From Antedon mediterranea (lineage: Eukaryota; Echinodermata; Crinoidea; Comatulida; Antedonidae), in NCBI RefSeq assembly GCF_964355755.1, contig NC_092674.1:8499001-8563000 (forward strand): a stretch of 64,000 bases of DNA. The letters run 5' to 3'. A program made the translations under genes and the position numbers. Positions 44,191 through 64,000 of the stretch are shown here, piece by piece (position 1 is the stretch's first letter; each line of letters starts with the position of its first letter). The notes beneath the pieces were generated by a model. It was not told the origin of the DNA and did no database searches. It saw only the letters and a program-made list of their open reading frames with translations.

Positions 44191-47100
44191 CTAAACGGTG
44201 GAACAATTATCAAGTGAAGGTGCGGCAAGAGTGATCTCCGGTAACTCAAATTCTGAACCGTCTTTTCTTCCTTTCAACCAAAACGTTGTTAATGGTTTTT
44301 TTCCCTGAAATGAAACGGGTACAATAATGAAATAATGCCATTACAACACAAACCGCCCGATTTGTAATACAACATTAATAAATCATATGTATGCAATGGA
44401 TGTGTTTCCAAAACAAACAAAAGCAAAATTTGAAAACTCTACAAAGTGAAATCCGATTGATTGATAGATAACAAGGCCATATAGATGGCTGCAGTCACGT
44501 GCTCATTAGTGTTTACCGACCGACCGGCCAACCGACCGTCCAACCTACCAACTGACCAAAATTGCTGAACAAAATGTTGAAATGTTGAAATGTTTAAAAT
44601 CATTTATATTTTTTTAATTTACACGTGCGTAGCCTGTCACTTTTGACGTGCTCGTATAACGTAATTTCGAGTTGAAAAGTAAGTCAAGAAAACAGAAATC
44701 GGGCAATAAGAGTGCGTAATAACATTTAACGCGAAGTGCGCGCGCAAAAATCTGCGCACTCATGGCAATTTTGTAAACGCTTAAAATTGCCTGAAACGTA
44801 CTCTTATTTCATCGAAAATAAATTTTGAAAATTTTAAGCGCGCGTACGGATGCGTTACATGCGCTACGCACGTAATTGTATTGCCATATGATGATTTATG
44901 CCCTGAAATTTATGAGTACCAAATTTTATTTAATTGTGATTGATGGTTGTGAAGATATGATTACAAACGTGATTTCGTTAAATCATGCGTAGACCGTGTA
45001 ATTTTTTATTGCGCACCGTGAAAACATAACCACATCGATTCCTGGCCATAAGGAATATACTGTGAAAAATTGACTTAGCTAGATTAAACTGATATCAAGA
45101 TAAGGTCATATACAAGTTAGTGTTTACCGACCGACCAACCGACCAACATAGTGAGCTGTAGAGTCGCGTTGCACGCGACTAAAAACAACCTCACCTACTA
45201 AAGTGTGCTTACACTGGGAATTAGAGAGCTTCATAAGAATGTTACTAAAATCAGTATTAGACTAAAGCTTGGTTCCCACTAGAACGTAACGCAAGGACGT
45301 AAACGCAACGCAAGCGTTTTAACCAATGACAAGCGAAGTTATAGACAGTTAGCAATCACACGCGAATAAGCCATCGCTTGTGATTGGTCAATTCACTTGC
45401 GTTGCGTTACGTCCTTGTGTTGCGTCGCTAGTGGGAACCACGCTTTAGTAGGTGGTAGTGGTGGACATATGCGATAGTAGTGGTAGGCGGAAGGCGGTAA
45501 GTAGTAGTGGTAGGCGGTAGTGATAAAGTGGATAAGTTAATTTACATACCTTTACGGTTATTTCTCCTCTTTTTTCCATATTAAAAGTGTCAAATTTGCT
45601 CAAAATATTGTGAGTTGCACTACTTACATGGACCATCATTGCTGAAATATTAATAATTAAATCGTGGCTGTAGCAATAGCAATCAATAGTAACATACGCT
45701 GGTGGTGGTGGTGGTATTGATGGAAGTGTTATTAGTTGGTATTATATTGTTAGTTTTGGTAATGGTAACAGTTATAGCGTTATAAAAATTTGGAACAGAT
45801 TACCAAGTCACATTAAGCACTTAGACGACTATAATCAGTTTAAAAAACATTTAAAAGCACTATATTTCAAAGAATGTTACGATACTAATTGATGTGAAGC
45901 GCCGCTGATTATAATTAAATGTTGTATAAATGTGCGCTATACAAGTAATAATAATAATAATAATAATAACAAAAACAGTTACGGATTGTAATTATTATAG
46001 GTGTATAGTTACTTTATATTATTATACTGTAGGCCTACTAATAATTATGTTCCTACACTTACCTAACCCACTTGACTCCATCCTAGAAGCCGTGTTTACT
46101 GTATCTCCAAACAGGCAATATCTTGGCATCTTTAGTCCAACAATTCCAGCTACAACTGAGCCTAGAATGAACAAATTTTGGCCGTTGTGATTTTTTTTCT
46201 ATTTTATCCAAAAAAAAGTAGTGAGAAAACTCTAATACAGAAAGAGTAGGATAGAAACTATCTGCCATATTCCTTCTACAGAAAGTTACAGTGTTAACTT
46301 GTGCTGTTTGACAGAAGTATTAATTTGTCTTTCTTAGCTTTCTATCAAGATTTTTTGTAACGACAAAACAGTTTTTCCTAAAATTGTTGTCATTTCTGAG
46401 AGGTTTAGTTATTTTTTATTTCCAACTACAAGTTATGTAATAATAATTATGTTACGTTATTTATACTGTATTACGTTGTCTACCTGAGTGAATTCCAACT
46501 CGTAACTGCATCCGATGCCCAGGCCTGTGTCGAATACTGAAGTGTTTAACTTTGTTTAGTAATGCCAGAGCCATACCGGCTATTTCTCCAGCATGATAAT
46601 TACTAATTCTTTCTGGTAATCCTGATACTACCATGTATGCATCTCCAATTGTCTCAACCTACAGAATATAAAGATATTTAAAAAAAGTTAGTATAATAGT
46701 TTTTAGCGGTTTTGATTCCTTAGTGTTCTTAAATAGTGCATTTAATTGTAAAGTTTAAAAAAAATCGCCCTATTAATATTACAATGTATAGAAAATATAT
46801 ATTTAGGCAAAAGTGCAAAAAAAATGTTTACCTTGTAGACGTTGTAGTGATCTATGACATCATCAAAAGCTGTGTAAAGATCGTTTAACATAGCAACTAC
46901 CTAAAAACATAAATTGTGTTACACAATAATGAATAGAAAAATTCTGAAGAACATGACTTTCTGTACCTTTTTGATTTGTCTTCGGAAAAAATAATCTTAA
47001 TAGCGCAGTCATTAATTATCATTTTACTAAACCTGTAAAGGTGTGCTCTCCGATGCTAGCTTTGTAAATCCGACAATATCACTAAAATAGATGGTAACCT

Positions 47101-50100
47101 CTTCAAAATACTCAGCCTCCACTTGTAAACCTTTCTTTAACTGATCAGCAACAGATCTGAAAAAAATTATGAAAAAAGAGTAAAAAAATGCATGTATTTC
47201 TTTTCTATAAAAAGTATAAAAGAGTTTGCGCAAAGTGGTATCCGATTCTTTTTAGTTTGTACTGCATTTAGACTATTGCGTCAGTATTGACTTTGCGCAT
47301 GTACAGCAACTGTTATAATAAGTTTTAAAAGTTTGTGCAAAGTGATTTGTTCTTTTTCGTACTTCATTTAAAGTTATTATTTATAAACTTATATTGTGTA
47401 GGCCTAATAAATATTACTAGTCACCGTCTCTAATCAATTAAAAATGGTTACAACGTTTGTCTACCTTGGTAGCATCTGGTACAGGAGTTGATCTGTTTTG
47501 TGTTTCTCCTCTTCAAGTTCTAATGTTCGGTCATGAACCAATTCTTCTAAATTATTAGCATATTTTTCCATCATACTTATCATATTATCAACAATGTTTA
47601 TTGATCTGGAAAGAATCATATATATGCGTATTTAACAGTAGGCCTAGCAATATTAATAGCTCTTCACATTGAGACCACCTATAATGTATATAGTATACTG
47701 TAGTCACTATTCTGTGAAATCATGTCATAACTGCTGTTAATCTCAGAATGTGGTACACATCATCTCATGCTTGTGTATTTTACCTATTTTTCTTATGAAC
47801 TAAGTTCCTGTCCCAAAACTAAGCAAATGCGAAAACTTTTTTGTTATTTCTTGCAATACAATCAATCCTTTTAAAGCAAAGTTCAAAATTGCACCATTAT
47901 GCTTCTCATTAGGTGAAAAAAATGAGTAACATGTAAGTAGAATAGTGTAACGCTCTGCCTACCTCTGTCCACACTATAAAACTATAGTTTGATAAAAAAG
48001 TGTGATGTTCCAAAATATAGTCATAGTCATGTCCATATATGGGCAAATCACATTTGTTGTCATATTCTGATACACAGAGCTTAAGGCTCATATTTGAATG
48101 TAGATGTGTATCTTAATGTTCTTTAGTATTTAGAACCAAAAATAATGAATCGTTGTAAAGCGAAAACATACTTGCCACCAGAAATCTTTTTAAGTTCAGA
48201 TTTAATTTTTGAATAAGTTGGTCTTTTTGTCGGCTCTTCATCCCAACAAGATTTAATCAAGAGTAACATCTGTCTCTTACATGCATCGACAGGAATGACT
48301 GGGCGTACATTCGGGACCGTTCCCAGTCTCACTGATTCGATAATATCTATAATTAAAATGTGAATTAGTTATAAATATATATGCCATAAAAGTGGAAAAA
48401 GTTGCCGAAAATAATTAAATTAATTTTGATATAATTGGAACTTTAATCAAATTTGGAACGCCTATACCAATAGTAAGATTATTATTTTTCAGTGGTATAC
48501 ATCCTTATCGTATTAAACCTTATATTTCACCTTTTGGTTCCACAACCTCAAGCATGCTGCTAAACGGCCCAGTCCGGAGGACGATCTCCTGCAGAATAAT
48601 CCCAAAGGCGTATACGTCACCATGAACTTCCAGAACGGGTTTGAAGCGTAATAACTCAGGGGCAGTCCAGAATAACTCTTAACAAAGCAAAGCATTGATA
48701 GTCCAGTCAATCTAGTGATATTTAGAGGTAAACCCACCACAAATTGCAATAGTAACAAAACATTGATTTTTTCATTCCAAATGTAGTTTAGAATGACATA
48801 TTAAAAGTCACCGAAAATTGAAGCATTGGAACACATTATTTTTTACGTAATCTCAACAACTATATAGTGATTTTATTTAATAAATATTTTGGGGTAGGGG
48901 GTAACATTTATGCCCATAAATTGTGGTTTTATAATCCAATCTCAATAATCTTAATATCAATGTGTAGAATATATATTTCTTTCTAATATGCAATTTAAAA
49001 AAAACAAAATACAACATTTATTTATATAACTAGAGGTCAAAAGGTTATTGACCTTTTACAAAAACTCATTTTTTTCCTTTAAAAAATGATTAACTGTAAT
49101 ATTGTGCCATAATTGTATATGCATTTAATCAAAATTGTGTTTTATCTGTACCTATCGATATATAAAATAGGAAACATGATGTTAACTAGAAGAATTTTAA
49201 AAGTAATGATGTACTATTCTTATTGAAATTGATTCTTGATCAAATGTAATGTAAACAATTTTGGGGTAGGGGGTAGCGTTTATGCCTATAATCCATTGTT
49301 TTATAATCATATCTAAATAGCTTTAGTACCAATGTGTAGAGTATATATATCCTACTAATAATATACATTAAAAAAACAATTAATACAACAGTTATACGTA
49401 ACTAGAGGTCAAAAGGTCATTGACCTTTCAAAAAAACTCAAATTTTCTTAAAATAGCGTAAAACTAAATTATGTTTATATATATTATATTTATATTTTGG
49501 AAGTATTTGGTGCAAATAATTTTTTTCCTGTACCTATTGTATCGTCATGAAATAGGAAAAATGATGCTAGCTAGAAGAACATTAAAATTCATTAGCGGTA
49601 TGTACTATTGTTGATTAATTAATGAGTCTTGATAATTTGGAATCAACTCATGATTTACTATAGATAGATTTTTGATAATTTTAGTATCAACGAATGTACG
49701 TAATGACAAGTATTTGATCTTCGCAGGGTTGCGTCTTCTCTCCTCTTCTGTATATTATATACACGGATGACTGTCGGAGCAAACAGGACAATAGTCATCT
49801 TTTCAAATTTGCTGACGACACTGTCTTGCTGGGCTCCTTCAAAATTCACAGGACGGTCATGGTTCCGCATTAGATGGTTTTATCCAATTTTGTGGAAACT
49901 CCTACTTGGAACTCAATGTGACCAAAACCAAGGAGATAATTGTAGATTTTAGGAAGGAGAAAGGACGCAGCCCTCTGGTATCCCCCACAAATGACAAACC
50001 AGCGATATTGCCCATTCCTTTAAATACCTAGGTACTATATTTGAGGACAATCTCAGCTGGGAATTAAATACAGAGGCAATAGTAAAGAAAGGACACCAGA

Positions 50101-53100
50101 GACTTCATCTGTTAAGGAAGCTGAACCATTTTAATGTCGATAAAGTAATTCTCATGGTTTTTTATAATTCCTTTATTGAGAACTTTTTAACTTTATATGC
50201 TGGTTTTTTAGTCTTATGGTCAAAGAGAGAAACTCACTACAAAGAATTGTTAACTTGAGTTCTAAATGAATAGGTTGTCAACTTCGTAGCTTATCTTCCT
50301 TCTGTGACATGCAAACTCTAGAAAAAAGTAGAGCTATTCTAAAAAATGTTAACCATGCCTTGTTCAGTGATTTCGAGCTCATGCCTCATGGGCGTTGCTT
50401 TCAATGCCCGGCATGTAGAACAAACTGGAAAAGAAATTTGTTTTTGCCATCCGACCCTTAAATTCTTGAACTGTGACTCTTGTTATATTGTACTGTATAT
50501 TGTGATATTTTTGTATATTTTGTAAGATCATTTTAATCCAGACCTTTTTATTGAATTGCTCCGTGTGGGATGATATATTTTAATCCTTCAATGCCATTGC
50601 ATTCAAGTATAATCTTTATTCGTTCCCACAAGGAGAAAATTCACCACATGTAGTTCTAATTACCCCTGAATGTTTCAAGAAGATACTCAGGTTCTGGCTT
50701 TAAGTCTGTGTGTAGAGGAACCAGGTTTCTATCATCTGATCTTCCATCCCCAATCCTCAAACACATATTTATTTATTTTATTTATTCGACTTCTCACTAA
50801 CTCAGTTAGTGAAGGATCTGGACCAACAGGTGGTAAACACCTCTAAAATGGTTCAGTCCCAATTTGCACAGTGGCTGTGTGTGACAGTGGCTGTGTTTGT
50901 GTGGACTAGTACACCGGGGTAACCCCCTACTCGTCTCGAAAGATGTACTAGGTTCTTTAAAGTGCGCATGAGCTAGTGTACACTGGACCTACGGTTTATA
51001 GTCCTTATCCGAGAAGACTCGTTCTACCACCAGAACCATGGAGCGAGTGAGCCTCGAACCCTTGCCGATTTTATGGCTACGTAATTACGGTTCCACTGTC
51101 TTAACCGCTCGGCCACTCACTCGCTTTATCAACCCCACTCCATTGCTAAAAGATATCTTGAACTTGAACATGATGTTAAGTACCTTGGTTGTGGTACGAT
51201 TATGAAGTTGGCGATATGCTAGGTTGTACTTGTAGATGGGATGGAGTCAAAGGCATTCCACGTTGTCCAGGTAGTCCATTGTACAGACGCACTAAATCAT
51301 TTTCTCTAGCAACCACAATGTCATCCTTTGTAGCTTGTTTGCATCTGAAGACTACAGCATCATGTAAGAAATAAGTGCAATGACAAGCTTTTTATAGAGC
51401 AACTTGTTTTCCAATTCCGAAAACTCTGGATGTTGTGTCACCAGTATCGCATGAGCAAACAGAAGGTTATCACAGATGTCTCTCAAATGTACTGTTTGAA
51501 CCAGTTTGATAGTCCAGCATCTCAGTTCCAGTCTAAAGAATATCACAAGATGTTTTAAATGCTTGACTGCAGAGGAGCACTAGTAGATCCGTGTCATCGG
51601 ATAATGACAGATATTTTCCTGTTTGCCGATTCAATGGTTGTTTGTACTATCCGAAAGAACATTACCATGTGCGCCGTCTTTGGTGGATGAACCGCTTTCA
51701 TAATTATCAAAGACTATGATGGCAGAGCAATATTTTTTACAGATCTCTACACTATTCCATGGAATGCTGTGCAGTAGAGCACTACCATCTAAAATGTAGG
51801 CCTACTGGACATCATTCAGTGAGTTGGATGTATTAGACTATTCAGAAGAAGTTGTTTCCACGTGGCATCATGTTGGTTTATTAGCTGAAAGTATTGTAAG
51901 TTGGTAGTTTCAAAAAGTGCTGGTGGATAACAAAGTCACCTCGAATCTCCTCTGGAACTGTAGGATTGATGCACACATATGACTTTATTGCCAGGATCTT
52001 GAATACATTGCAAGACTTTTCTAATATTCCAAGTCACCTGCAGTAACTCCTGTGTCAATGGTATGAAGTCTCTGAGTCGTAACCAAATGGATTTTTCAAT
52101 TGCCATTGTGTTCCTGACGTGTGGCCATAAGGTCTTATGTTGGCCACTGCTGGAGTAACGCCCTGATACTATTGCAAGGCATTACATACATTTCAGCACA
52201 GATTTGGTCTGGATGTACGCATTCCTATATCTCTTGTCAAACCTCTGGTTTTCTTTGAGGCTTCTCATAGAAACTTTTTCAATCACCAGGTCTGTTGACA
52301 ATCCAGCCCAGATGGTCCGAACGTCATACATACAACATGGAGGTCATTGTCAAACTGCTGTTGAACATTTTTGTATTTCTACTGGTTAAAAAATCGTTAA
52401 AATACTTATACATCCCAATATAAATACTGTAACCATGGCAACACAAATGCCATCTGGAAAAAATGGAATGTAGATCATCCAGAAGCAACAGGAACGGAGA
52501 TGTCGCTCATCTGCATCTTGAACTGGTCATGTGTATCGCGTTGGACTGAAATGTTCACCCCAGAGTATCCCTGTGTGTTTACCATTGTTGTTTACAGCGA
52601 AAACAACATTTTTAGCCAAAATTGACACATTATGTTTTTTTTTCCGCAAAAAGGACATTCTAAATAAAATGTTATGACTATAAGTTTGATATCACTGAAT
52701 AGAAAATTTAATAAGCTTTCGGATGACATAAATCCCACTTCTATATAATGTATTTTATATGGTTAAATATATGTAATTAATGGGGCATATTAATTTTGAC
52801 TTAAAATGACCTTTATTGACCTCTGACCCCTTGACCCAATGCTTGGATTTTCGGTGACTTTTAGTATGTCGTTCTACACATTATATAGAATTAAAAAATA
52901 CTAGCTTTGTTACTATTGCAATTTGTGGTGGGTATATCATTAGATTGACTGGACTATGAAGTAATACTTAAAGTCTATAATATCTAGAAATTAGTGTAGC
53001 TGCCAAAATTCGCCTATTCGGATGGCACAAAGATAGCTTAGCACTATCAGTGTAAGCAAGATATAAATATCCATAACACTGTAAACTGCAATTTTCAAAT

Positions 53101-56100
53101 AGGCCTATAGTATTTTATTCTTTAGCCGACTTACTTATACTCTTTCCTTCTACGGTTTTTTTTTGTCAATTGAAATTCTCCAAAAACTAGAATTTTCAAA
53201 TGGTATTTTAATCATTAGCAGACTCCCTAGATTTTCTTTCATTGTAATTTCTGAACGAAGTATTTGTCAATTTAAATTCTCATTTTTAAATAGTATTTTA
53301 GTCTTTTAGCAGACTTCCTATATTTCCTAATTAATTGTACTTTCTGAACTTTAGGAGAGGTAATTTGTCAATTGAAATTCTCCAAAATTGCAAACTGAAA
53401 TTTTCAAATAGTATTTTAATCTTTAGAAGACCGTTCTATCTTATTTCTATCATTTTACTTTTTAAACGTTGGCAGCTGTATTTTGTCAAATAAAATTCTC
53501 CGAATTGCAAACTGCAGTGTTCTATGTATATGATATTGGACAGAAACTTTCTTTCATTCTGAATGTTAGGAGCGATTTCTTTTTAATTTTCATTCTCCAA
53601 ACTATAGATATTTATTATCTAACAAGATCATTGTTTTATACATACGTCTACAAGTTATGTTTTCATCCTCTTCGGTATCGATTTCTTCGTTTCTTCTGAA
53701 TTGAGTTAATCCAAAATCAGTCAATTTACAAACCCAGTGACTGTCCACTACACAATTTGAAGATTTTAGGTTCCCATGTTTTTTCATCGGACTCTGGGAT
53801 AAAAATTCCAATCCCTGAAAAGAACGAATTATAACCATAATACTGATATGCTTTGTTATAGGGATAAAGTATGTAAGTGTTGAGGCGCTTTGTATACATA
53901 TAATAATATTATTCATATTATCGCCTGGGCTATAAGAATGTTTACAAGCGTAAACGATTTTTGGATGGCCTACGATTATTGTAAAAATATTATATTATCA
54001 AAATGACATTTATAGAACACATTTTACAAATCATTTTGAAATTTTACTATTTCTGTATTTGTCAACTATTTAAAACCCGGTAAGTCTACCCTTTAAATCG
54101 GTAATACAATCAAACTTCAGTAATTAAATAATATGATGAATTAGAGATTAACTGATGAATAGAATAACGGTATTCACCTGAATAATGTCTGAAGCAAACG
54201 ACAATTTGAAATTCTCGTCAATAGAAATGTCTGTGTTTTCTAATACATCTGCCAGACTGCCTTTGTTGCAATATATCATGACGTAACAGATGTCAGGAGC
54301 AATGGTGCACGCGCCTACAAACCTATTTATGTTAGTATGTTGTAGATCTATCATCTTAAAGAAAAACGAAAATAGTAAACACAGATAAAGAAGAATTCTG
54401 CAAATGAGATTCGAACTAGGACATTTTTCTACTTGATGTCTTATTATCAAACTCCGATTGGATATTCTGCACTTTTTAAGTTTAGCCATTCGCTTAGGAA
54501 AATAGCAGATATAAGCATTAATTATGTATTTCTTCAAGAAAAAATGTTAGGTATACTTTTATATACGTTACTTATATTTTTAATATACAATCATGATCTC
54601 ATGTTATAAAAACAGTCCTGGCAAAAGTGATGAAAACATAATGCAAAATCAAAGGAGACTAATATTGTGTATTTTGATAATATACGTGTGTTTCATTTAA
54701 ATGCATACGATTTGTGTGGTGTATAGGCCTACGTGTTTGTGGTGAATTGCTTGTTCCGTATAGTTCTAGTGGTAACCAAGCTTGTGGTGCCTTCTGTATT
54801 TTTACATACCTGTTTCATCTCAACGAGTAACTCTCGATCTATTGTTATACTTGATTTTCTTACTTGTTTAATTGCTACTCTGTTTCCCTTTAATAAAAAT
54901 AAATGAATTGATGAAATTCAAACAAACTATTAAAGAAAGTCGGTCCTACATATTAGTAACAGTTAACAAATACTTGAAGTAATACCATGTACCGTAGTTT
55001 CGTAAGCTTTCGATTTACGACTCGACCGACGACCAACCTAGGTCAGGTCAATCGATGTGACGTCGGTCGTCGTCTGGACCATAAAAAAAAAACATCAAAT
55101 CTGTGTTGAGGTGAGTAACGAGGACACACGCCCCAATCCCAATATCTCCGCATGTGCACAATCAACTACATCTTCTTGACCCAATAGAGAGGTTTCGCAA
55201 TCTTACGAATACGATAACGAAAACGGATACGTCACGCACACGTATTCGTTTTCGTAAGCCATAAAAAATCTGTTTCGAATGGCAACGAAATATTGAGGTG
55301 CGTCCAAAATATGACTGCGGTAAATTTGAGCGAAGCGCAGGTACGTATTGCTTGGTGCTTGGCTGCCTAGGCCTAGCGTAACATCAAAGCGAGTGAGGAC
55401 TTTAAAAACTGCTATTTATCAAAATTGACTTGGCACTTTAGTAAATTACTTTAGTAAATTACTTTCAATAAATCTAGTATTATATTATAATCATGAATCA
55501 TTTCTGATTCAAATGCAAAATGTGCAAAATAGATCAAAAACTATACTCGTTTTGTTGTTACGAATATGACTGGTGATATTCGTCAACACGAATACGCTTT
55601 ACGAATATGAAATGGGGATCAGCTCAAAAGTTTCACAAATGTATGACGTATCCGTTTTCGTTATCGTATTCGTAAGGTTGCGAAACCTCCCTAATGTGTC
55701 GTAACAGACTGCAGTGTTTAACAAATGTTTTGTCTCCTTAAAAATGAGTATAGAGGGGTGTTCCAGAGCTACAACTCCACAATGCAATTTATGCTCTTTA
55801 TTGAAAAAATAAAAACCTATTCTCTACCTTGTAGTAGCCGACTTTGCAAAATTTCTGGCTTCCACCAAAAAGTGAACTATTCATACCGCTCTGTACAGAC
55901 GTTGGTCTATTTTCAATAGCTTGCGTTTTTCCTGTTGTTATACTTTTGTTTGATATGTTTTTTGAAGAATAGTTACTTGTTAAATGAGACCTCTGAAAAA
56001 TGTACAAATCTTATGATAGATTTTATTAAGGATTTTAACTAGTTTTTAAACTTAGTAATTGTATCTATTTTTTGTATAGTTCACACATATTTCATGTTTT

Positions 56101-62100: not shown

Positions 62101-63597
62101 GAAGAATATGTAATCCCCATTGATCATACCAAAATCATAAGCGTACAACATGACGTCACGGACATCACCTCCGTATGCAAACAATAGGATTACTGTAAAA
62201 AAACATTAAAACAATACATACATAGTTAAACAGACAAATAGATAGCTGACGTGTTATGTGTATGAGAGTGTTCTGTATTCTGCCTCCCTATATGGACCTA
62301 GCTGTGGAGAACAAGCACTAAGTATTCTCTGCATCCACAAGGTTACCCTGACCATGTTAAATCACACTCTACCACGTTTAATAATTCTACTGATGCGGTG
62401 ACATGTGCACCATTTACACTAGGACGATAACGATCGACGATAAATAGACAAATATGCATTTTTCATACATAAAACAAAAGAAATACAAAAACTGTTCATT
62501 CTAGAATTATAGAATAACCATCTATGCTTCCTTTGATGAAAATGATCTTTTCACACGTTCAATCAAATGACGTCATGATTAGTAACAGCAATAATATCGT
62601 GACAATACAACGATTTTATTGTTTTTATTTATCATGACGTCATTTGATTGGAATTTAAAAAATCTTATTTTTATAAAATAAAAAAAAAAACCTTTCTAAT
62701 TTCATTTGTTTGTTGTAATAAAAATGCATGCTTATATATATATATTTATCTAGTGTGCCTTTAGCAGCAGCTCAGGTTATCATAATCATAATGTACTAAG
62801 TTATCAAAAGTATGTCATAACATGCATATGAATATAGACCAATTCTGTAATGGTCATTTCAATAGAGAAACAAAATCATTCTTACTTCTGGCTTCGTCTT
62901 TAGTTTTTTCTAACGTTGTATAATGAGTGTCTTCAGTTCCGTACACTAGGTGTTCATTTCCAGGTTCAAAACTGCTGTATTGGGAAATTTCAACTCCAGC
63001 ATCTTCAAGACTAGTCCGAACTTCCGACGAGGTTAACTGCCACGAGTGTTCGCTGGAAGTAATTATGGCAGCTCTAGACCATTCAAAACGATGAAAAAGC
63101 TCTACAATCATCGGTGCGCATCTGAAGTACGGACCAACAGTACGAACAAATGTAGGATAATTGAGCTTATTTGACATGGATGAAGATGTGCAGCCCCACG
63201 AAATCATAGGAAGATCCCAGGCCGCGGTTAAAAGTCCAGATGGCTCACAGACACTGTCACATCCGGCACCGATGAATCCATGTAGATGCAGAACCAATCC
63301 ATGAGACCATAGATCAACTACTTCGTACAGGCCATCACCAGCATTACAACGTGTGTCGTTCCAGAGGAATCCGATCGATCGATTTGGTAAGAGCGCCGGA
63401 TCATTCTGAATATCATCGATGGCGATAGATGCCGCGCTAGCGATCTTTGAACCTATTGGCCAGGAGCCTGTATATGGCAGCAATACACCAAGTACGATAT
63501 CAGTGGTGTCTCCATATGACCCAACGCTTCCTAAAACCACATTTATGAAAGGTACGATCAGACAGAATCGAATGCATTGCTTTAACCTCATCGGCAT
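44191..63597 (-). CDS. NPR1/NPR2: Receptor guanylyl cyclase, natriuretic-peptide-receptor type, 1,094 aa
   Basis: Nineteen coding exons, all in phase: 63597-62886, 62192-61891, 61137-61002, 59939-59706, 58647-58569, 56301-56205, 55992-55828, 54887-54810, 54354-54178, 53814-53646, 48677-48531, 48346-48172, 47605-47465, 47156-47033, 46900-46832, 46658-46484, 46161-46063, 45641-45550, 44304-44191. It makes cGMP from GTP at the plasma membrane on binding an extracellular peptide (ligand unknown here). A signal peptide (to about residue 25) precedes an ANF-receptor domain (to about 461, ending in the membrane-proximal [10 protein letters not shown]). One membrane helix follows (about 463-486), then a pseudokinase (about 570-820; VAIKQV Lys, HGNLKSSN in place of HRD, DFG kept), a dimerisation coil ([11 protein letters not shown]) and the cyclase domain (SDIVGFT with metal Asp 897, [25 protein letters not shown]). 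Human NPR1 is 1,061 aa. A 5' UTR acceptor lies near 63677. Confidence 0.94.
44464..45190. repeat. Dispersed repeat, about 720 bp, with GACC-rich ends
   Basis: It begins near GGCCATATAGATGGCTGCAG and a (GACC)n-like run (ACCGACCGACC), passes CACGTGCGTAGCCTGTCACT, GAGTGCGTAATAACATTTAA and CGTACGGATGCGTTAC, and ends in a second ACCGACC run followed by AGAGTCGCGTTGCACGCGAC. The middle recurs at 57650-58185 and the ends at 60826-60965. No ORF. It lies in the last cyclase intron. Confidence 0.7.
45263..45447. mobile_element. GGTTCCCACTAG-family MITE, 183-bp subtype
   Basis: Almost identical to 3703-3885, including AGTTATAGACAGTTAGCAAT and both ends, and flanked by TAAA/TTTA. It lies in the last intron of the cyclase gene. 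Confidence 0.85.
45780..45968 (+). pseudogene. 3' end of a LINE with (ATA)n tail
   Basis: An open stretch reads [20 protein letters not shown], then a short helix and a stop. This is the typical C-terminal end of LINE ORF2 proteins (W-N-x-L-P followed by a helix). A short 3' UTR and an ATAATAATA microsatellite follow. It lies in a cyclase intron, antisense to the gene. It is 5'-truncated, as usual for target-primed insertions. Confidence 0.6.
47949..48086. mobile_element. CTGTCTACACTATCAAAC-family MITE, degraded
   Basis: It runs from about TAACGCTCTGCCTACCTCTG (left end disrupted) through CATGTCCATATATGGGCAAA to GATACACAGAGCTTAAG. It lies in the cyclase intron between 47605 and 48172. Confidence 0.55.
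49720..50640 (+). pseudogene. Degenerate LINE reverse transcriptase fragment
   Basis: An in-frame stretch [18 protein letters not shown] followed by [13 protein letters not shown] carries the RT catalytic FADD motif. After frameshifts, remnants of the thumb and C-terminal region follow ([13 protein letters not shown]-like, a [11 protein letters not shown]-like segment, then LQRIVN). It resembles Rex1-type fish and invertebrate LINEs. It is 5'-truncated, with multiple stops. It lies inside the 48697-52957 composite, antisense to the cyclase. Confidence 0.75.
50765..51123 (-). mobile_element. tRNA-derived SINE (copy 2)
   Basis: On the minus strand it begins with the same tRNA-like head as 8232-8555 (GTGGCCGAGCGG A box, GGTTCGAGGCTCACTC with B box) and shares the core up to GGGGTTACCCCGGTGTA. 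After that it has a different 3' part (ACAGCCACTGT repeats, GGTCCAGATCCTTCACTAAC) and an AAATAAATAAA tail. It lies within the composite in the cyclase intron. Confidence 0.85.
51190..52400 (-). pseudogene. Decayed coding remnant of a probable mobile-element protein
   Basis: Minus-strand frame near 52340-52190 reads [17 protein letters not shown], then [10 protein letters not shown], before a stop. A nearby frame gives [20 protein letters not shown]. From memory, the [16 protein letters not shown] and QHK motifs occur together in a repeat-associated protein family of cnidarians and other invertebrates whose role is not known to me. Frames are broken by many stops and shifts. It lies within the 48697-52957 composite. 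Confidence 0.45.
53080..53610 (+). repeat. Degenerate tandem repeat, about 100-118 bp units
   Basis: The motif TTTGTCAATTGAAATTCTCC (with variants) recurs at 53162, 53263, 53364 and 53482, each followed by TTTTCAAATRGTATTTTARTC-like sequence, giving about 4.5 copies. It ends 40 bp before cyclase exon 53814-53646 (its donor side on the minus strand). Confidence 0.65.
55185..55694. mobile_element. GAGAGGTTTCGC-ended MITE, about 510 bp (copy 2)
   Basis: The same inverted ends as 9238-9686 (AGAGAGGTTTCGCAATCTTA and TAAGGTTGCGAAACCTCCCT), flanked by TA. It is longer than copy 1 through an extra segment near 55318-55340 and an ACGAATACGCTTTACGAATA insertion near 55590. It lies in a cyclase intron. 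Confidence 0.85.
57141..57210 (-). repeat. tRNA-like relic (SINE head?)
   Basis: On the minus strand, TGGCTCGGTGG fits an A box and GATCGAGTCTC a B box, at tRNA-like spacing. It aligns with the relic at 61278-61350. No convincing cloverleaf, so not called as a tRNA gene. Confidence 0.35.
57650..58185. repeat. Second copy of the 44464-45190 repeat, ends missing
   Basis: It shares CACGTGCGTAGCCTGTCACT, CATGGCAATTTT, CGCACGTAATTGTATTGCCA and TGGCCATAAGGAATATACT with 44615-45105 and lacks the GACC-rich ends. It lies in a cyclase intron. Confidence 0.7.
58755..58939. mobile_element. GGTTCCCACTAG-family MITE, 183-bp subtype, inverted
   Basis: In opposite orientation to 3703-3885 and 45263-45447 and nearly identical to them. 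It is bounded by TTAA on both sides (58755-58758, 58936-58939), the best evidence here for a TTAA target site in this family. Confidence 0.85.
59047..59212. mobile_element. Foldback MITE, about 166 bp
   Basis: TAAGCCGATTTTCCACTAGG with CGAATTTGTTCGCGCGAA returns at the right end as TTCGCGCGAACAAATTCG and GTGGAAAATCGGC, a terminal inverted repeat of about 38 bp. The inner part has a second inverted pair (GTCAGCTTATACGCATG, CATGCGTACAAGCTGGC). It lies in a cyclase intron. Confidence 0.75.
60826..60965. repeat. End fragment of the GACC-rich dispersed repeat
   Basis: It contains AGTCGCGTGCAAACGCGACT, a GGTTGGTCGGTCGGTTGG array and GGTAAACACTAACTCA. This is the two ends of the 44464-45190 element, in inverted orientation, joined with the middle deleted. 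It lies in a cyclase intron. Confidence 0.65.
61278..61350 (-). repeat. tRNA-like relic (SINE head?)
   Basis: On the minus strand, TAGCTTGGTGG (A box) and GGTTCAATCATG (B box) lie at tRNA-like spacing, colinear with 57141-57210. The arms pair poorly. Confidence 0.35.
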
Positions 63598-64000
63598 CTT
63601 TGTCGATTGATTAAATTGTTAGAGATCATTGAATTTTACTGTGATTATCATTTCGTCATTTTAGCAGTAGAAGGACCTGTAAAAGATAACAAAAAGACAA
63701 ACGTTTTATGTCACACCACTAGACTTTTAGAATCTTAAACTTGGTGAAAGTAATTTGACGAGATGGAACATCCGAATTTTCACTTGTAGCTGGTTAGCTT
63801 ACTTGAACTACATGATATATTGCCTTTGTGTTGCATCTTCTTCTTCTTCAATAACATTTATTCAATAATGGTAAAGACAAATAATACAAGAATAATAAAC
63901 AATAAGAAACAGTAATACAAAACAAAAACAAGAAAAGCTAAATAAGAGAAAGGAATGGCATCATTGGGGTCATGATTAGAAGTAAAAAACTTGTCTCACC

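Follow-up and report, generated by a model that had tools for sequence, protein, structure and literature searches.

The window analysed here, a stretch of 64,000 nucleotides from the genome of Antedon mediterranea, carries on its minus strand a receptor guanylyl cyclase gene, as indicated by domain matches, and one intron of this gene contains a complete DNA transposon in which further mobile sequences are nested (Table 1). The donor of this intron, GTATGT, follows base 53646, and its phase fits the join to exon 48677-48531. Both arms of the element lie within this single intron, with no exon between them. The preliminary description had placed a kinase-domain exon 20 bp from one of the arms; the exon is real and belongs to the receptor guanylyl cyclase, but the gap is 21 bp, and these last 21 bp of the acceptor are host sequence.

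Table 1. Features of the guanylyl cyclase locus and of the inserted element, with positions in the window.
Feature	Position	Strand	Remarks
ANF_receptor domain	62857-63618	-	E=1.2e-31
Kinase-homology exons	within 54151-54546, 53605-53994, 48531-48677, 48126-48368	-	
HNOBA-type linker	47464-47631	-	
Cyclase domain	46464-46658	-	
Host exon, kinase-homology domain	48531..48677	-	acceptor 21 bp from element
Host intron with element	48678..53645	-	4968 bp; about 707 bp without insertion
Left 3-bp target-site duplication, TGA	48696..48698	.	flank comparison
Complete non-autonomous DNA transposon, probably AcademX-like	48699..52956	+	4258 bp
Left terminal inverted repeat	48699..48829	+	begins TAGTCCAGTCAATCTA
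Subterminal direct-repeat unit 1	48886..49240	+	period 372 bp
Subterminal direct-repeat unit 2	49258..49633	+	372-bp spacing
LINE fragment, C-terminal reverse-transcriptase part	49707..50461	+	in nearly all copies
Decayed transposon gene (XPG-type nuclease protein)	50670..52310	-	tblastn; interrupted by stops, frameshifts and SINE
SINE, 358 bp, A-rich tail	50769..51126	-	absent from most copies, present in L025
Right terminal inverted repeat	52836..52956	-	ends TAGATTGACTGGACTA
Right 3-bp target-site duplication, TGA	52957..52959	.	flank comparison

The composite that had been delimited at 48697-52957 is a real unit, although its exact limits are 48699 and 52956, with a 3-bp TGA duplication on both sides. 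Repeat detection in the window returned inverted arms at 48720-48829 and 52836-52945 (110 nt, 81% complementary), in agreement with the arms of about 120 bp proposed earlier, and the full arms extend to the element ends as terminal inverted repeats of ~120-130 bp beginning TAGTCCAGTC. The 16-mer TAGTCCAGTCAATCTA has two exact matches in the window, one at each of these ends. The 372-bp direct repeat was likewise recovered at a 372-bp spacing, and a third unit of the same type (about 373 bp) occurs in 5 of 12 other copies. Besides, 154 bp after position 51661, kept in 12/12 other compared copies, are missing from the window copy, a deletion that is private to it. Searches of the element region with Rfam and ARAGORN gave no matches.

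A search of all 18 contigs of the genome (354 Mb) recovered many further copies with the same arms, so that the absence of other copies, which would have refuted the preliminary description, is not what is observed. In its 40 best places the left arm shows 98-100% identity, and the right arm was recovered at 96-100%. When up to two mismatches were allowed, the terminus TAGTCCAGTCAATCTAGTGATA was found at 179 genome places compared to 0 for the reversed control, while the 16-mer, with at most one mismatch, was found at 236 places compared to 13 in the control. Family copies were compared first, followed by twelve more intervals that included related families. Ordinary family copies are 3.5-4.4 kb long. 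In an alignment of 13 copies that includes the window one, individual copies deviate by 1.1-3.4% from the majority sequence (the window copy by 1.6%), and the K2P distance averages 3.5% over all pairs. The family is young and moderately abundant, and its defective copies number about one hundred. Some larger copies (L031, L032 and L034/L035) were considered as candidate autonomous elements and rejected, given that their extra length consists of other retroelements nested inside them, including a 1651-aa LTR-type ORF and LINE ORFs. The former, at L031:1498-6450 (G000:C8:1167537-1177530), is a single open frame of the LTR-retrotransposon type within a family copy, in which protease, reverse transcriptase and integrase-like parts can be recognized by eye.

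The LINE fragment and the SINE, both anticipated in the preliminary description, were confirmed. The reading frame of the LINE fragment matches RVT_1 (E=1.5e-7) in the sister copy L036, and the fragment was amplified together with the element. The SINE occurs at at least 40 genome places at 97% identity or higher and belongs to a very abundant, young family, with 3390 first-look candidates, of which those scored showed 97-99% identity; A- and B-box-like words can be seen by eye, and ARAGORN reported no tRNA in 50769-51126. The SINE was considered as private to the window copy and this was rejected, since L025 (C3:37133368-37137788), at an unrelated locus with different flanks, carries it at the identical point. 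A SINE common to the window copy and to a copy at another locus implies that a SINE-loaded element moved a second time. From the layered cargo, with the LINE in nearly all copies and the SINE in two copies at unrelated loci, the succession of steps can be read: decay of the gene and gain of the LINE, amplification, gain of the SINE, and further movement. The cargo also illustrates that defective transposons can bring retroposon sequence to new places.

A decayed protein gene had been described between the arms, and tblastn confirmed its presence; it is, however, a remnant of the transposon's own protein and not an unrelated gene. The remnants on the minus strand of the window are collinear with the protein of related elements, and the C-terminal end of the gene, at about 50670-50768, was placed by means of the sister copy L037. 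The stop in CDIL*TG is common to L036, L037, L038 and the window copy, and stops shared among copies indicate that the amplified master was already dead. What links the family to coding elements is a terminus of 16 identical bases, together with an identity of 75-78% across the initial ~78 bp, as observed in L041, L043, L046, L047 and L048, which also contain pieces of the protein. Additionally, L066, which has the same terminus, aligns to residues 298-1184 of L063, a full-length relative, with an identity of 33%, and a further gene copy, L059, has a 613-aa frame. L041 and L048 were rejected as full autonomous elements, their gene having stops and no N-terminal half, and none of the genome copies examined is an intact autonomous element that shares its exact ends with the window family. 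Identical stretches of 343-374 aa are encoded at three different loci (L041, L048 and L054), which points to a relative without its N-terminal part that moved or was duplicated very recently.

The full-length relatives L063, L064 and L065 have open frames of 1247-1534 aa with an XPG-type nuclease and a cysteine-rich C-terminus, and they appear to be complete genes of the AcademX-like kind. The score of L065 is equalled by that of a second locus, C8:13753496. Pfam matches in different members were weak when taken alone (XPG_I, E=0.042; DUF6589, E=9.6e-7, in the upstream part of one full-length relative, L065; CXC-type cysteine domain, E=0.0091). A profile built from eight C-terminal domains retrieved Exonuclease 1 from the Protein Data Bank (E=2.4e-6, 218 profile positions aligned), and the alignment takes in the motifs FDGY..S.K..R, EADA, DTD and GCD..S...GIGK. 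On this homology, the C-terminal domain of the relatives' protein is an XPG/FEN-type nuclease.

Target-site duplications were counted in 26 family and related copies, with the TA at both ends treated as belonging to the element. The flanking duplications, which included TGA, GTA, TCA, AGT, TAT, ATT and others, were of 3 bp in 23/26 copies and of 4 bp in 2/26, and none exceeded 5 bp in these 26 copies tested to 8 bp; shuffled flank partners gave a mean of 2.4 and a maximum of 8 (5000 trials) compared to the 23 observed. Moreover, queries joining both flanks with one 3-bp copy retrieved empty sites for three copies, which come from L025, L030 and L047 and not from the window locus: a gap-free match over 120/120 bases (99%) at ten places for L025, across 121 bases (98%) at seven places for L030, and over 118/118 bases at three places for L047. 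The uninterrupted empty sites demonstrate that members of the family, and one relative, duplicate 3 bp upon insertion. For the window locus, the expected empty-site sequence is ...GCATTGAAGTAATAC....

Taken together, these features make it highly probable that the element is a cut-and-paste DNA transposon belonging to AcademX and itself non-autonomous. It has been reported that AcademX elements make 3- or 4-bp duplications and AcademH elements 9- or 10-bp duplications, matching their nuclease and helicase (Kojima, PMC10045372). The window family resembles AcademX in its 3- or 4-bp duplications (PMC10045372), its terminal inverted repeats and the nuclease, here XPG/FEN-like, of terminus-sharing relatives, with a decayed homologue in the window copy; it differs in being non-autonomous, the N-terminal part of its gene gone and the remainder full of stops, and in its long arms (~120-130 bp), 372-bp subterminal repeats and cargo of LINE and SINE. 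AcademH belongs to the same superfamily, but its 9-10-bp duplications and helicase (PMC10045372) were not seen here, and the relatives' proteins gave no Pfam match to a helicase. The superfamily assignment is the most likely one on duplication length, nuclease and sharing of the terminus, rather than on Academ reference sequences, and AcademX is the most economical classification, with the DUF6589 match of L065 as a tentative candidate for the catalytic DDE core. The preliminary description was right in suspecting a DNA-transposon family, but the kind is not an undescribed one, because both the duplication length and the nuclease-type protein agree with AcademX, a lineage already known; the window family adds a non-autonomous member to an established superfamily and is ordinary in kind.

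An origin from a superfamily other than Academ (e.g., Harbinger, Zator or CACTA) or from an unnamed one is unlikely. Several superfamilies make 3-bp duplications and the unconfirmed DDE core leaves some room for such an origin, but the duplications of the window family are not the TWA of PIF/Harbinger, the ends are not those of CACTA, and the encoded XPG/FEN-type domain is as expected for AcademX, whose nuclease is of the XPG type. The TA found next to either end of almost all copies was at first read as the target duplication, which would make the element a non-autonomous Tc1/mariner transposon with ends GTCC..GGAC that duplicates its TA target. Nevertheless, this has hardly any probability: here TA belongs to the element and the true 3-bp duplication lies outside it in 23 of the 26 copies, the relatives encode an XPG-type nuclease protein and not a mariner transposase, and the reading is refuted because the gap-free empty sites of L025, L030 and L047 lack the element's TA. 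That the arms arose by inverted duplication in place, with repeats due to chance and no mobile element, is a reading for which nothing speaks beyond the arms themselves; it is refuted by ~180 termini elsewhere, by the identical structure of all fetched family copies, and by the target-site duplications and empty sites.

As an AcademX-type element, the insertion probably has the following history. An ancestral AcademX-like element lost its coding capacity through stops, frameshifts and loss of the N-terminal half of its protein, and it took up the LINE fragment. We infer that amplification took place in trans, through the protein of intact relatives recognizing the shared terminus TAGTCCAGTCAATCTA, and that one of these relatives supplied the enzyme; such mobilization would have produced the 3-bp, and sometimes 4-bp, target-site duplications. 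One copy later gained the SINE, a copy loaded in this way moved again, and the window copy inserted at a TGA target in the ~0.7-kb receptor guanylyl cyclase intron and lost 154 bp. The exact ends, duplications, empty sites and link to an encoded protein described here for a young AcademX-like family should be useful for genome annotation.

The preliminary description had also proposed that the arms pair in the pre-mRNA, and the predicted arm duplex, of about -141 kcal/mol compared to -32 for shuffled arms, is consistent with this ability. At most, such predicted pairing could possibly loop the intron; two arms that enclose no exon lack the layout that promotes circular RNA, which is accordingly not predicted. 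In addition, the element end just upstream of the acceptor contains TTGACT, a branch-point-like word located about 29 nt from the AG. Both the strength of the duplex and this word would favor a role for the host, in which pairing brings donor and acceptor closer and the element terminus serves as branch point for the exon. This role is nevertheless very improbable: arms of this kind are common to all family copies, which makes the potential for pairing no evidence of function or selection, a distance of ~690 bp separates the donor from the nearer arm, and the insertion is young and known from one locus. It is scarcely less doubtful that a young AcademX-derived insertion took over the supply of the branch point and shapes the guanylyl cyclase intron through arm pairing, which, if true, would represent splice-site remodelling by a transposon end. 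An insertion beside a splice acceptor is in itself a natural test of the proximity of an element that is tolerated near an exon.

The 16-bp terminus was also observed in elements of other sizes. L042 (C2:13290914-13297544) is a 6.6-kb element of another subfamily; its frames do not exceed 130 aa, and it does not clearly resemble the nuclease protein. L045 (C4:34011861-34012399) is a miniature element of 539 bp with a G-rich tandem repeat, and a pair of ends at a similar distance occurs at C4:34028621-34029157.
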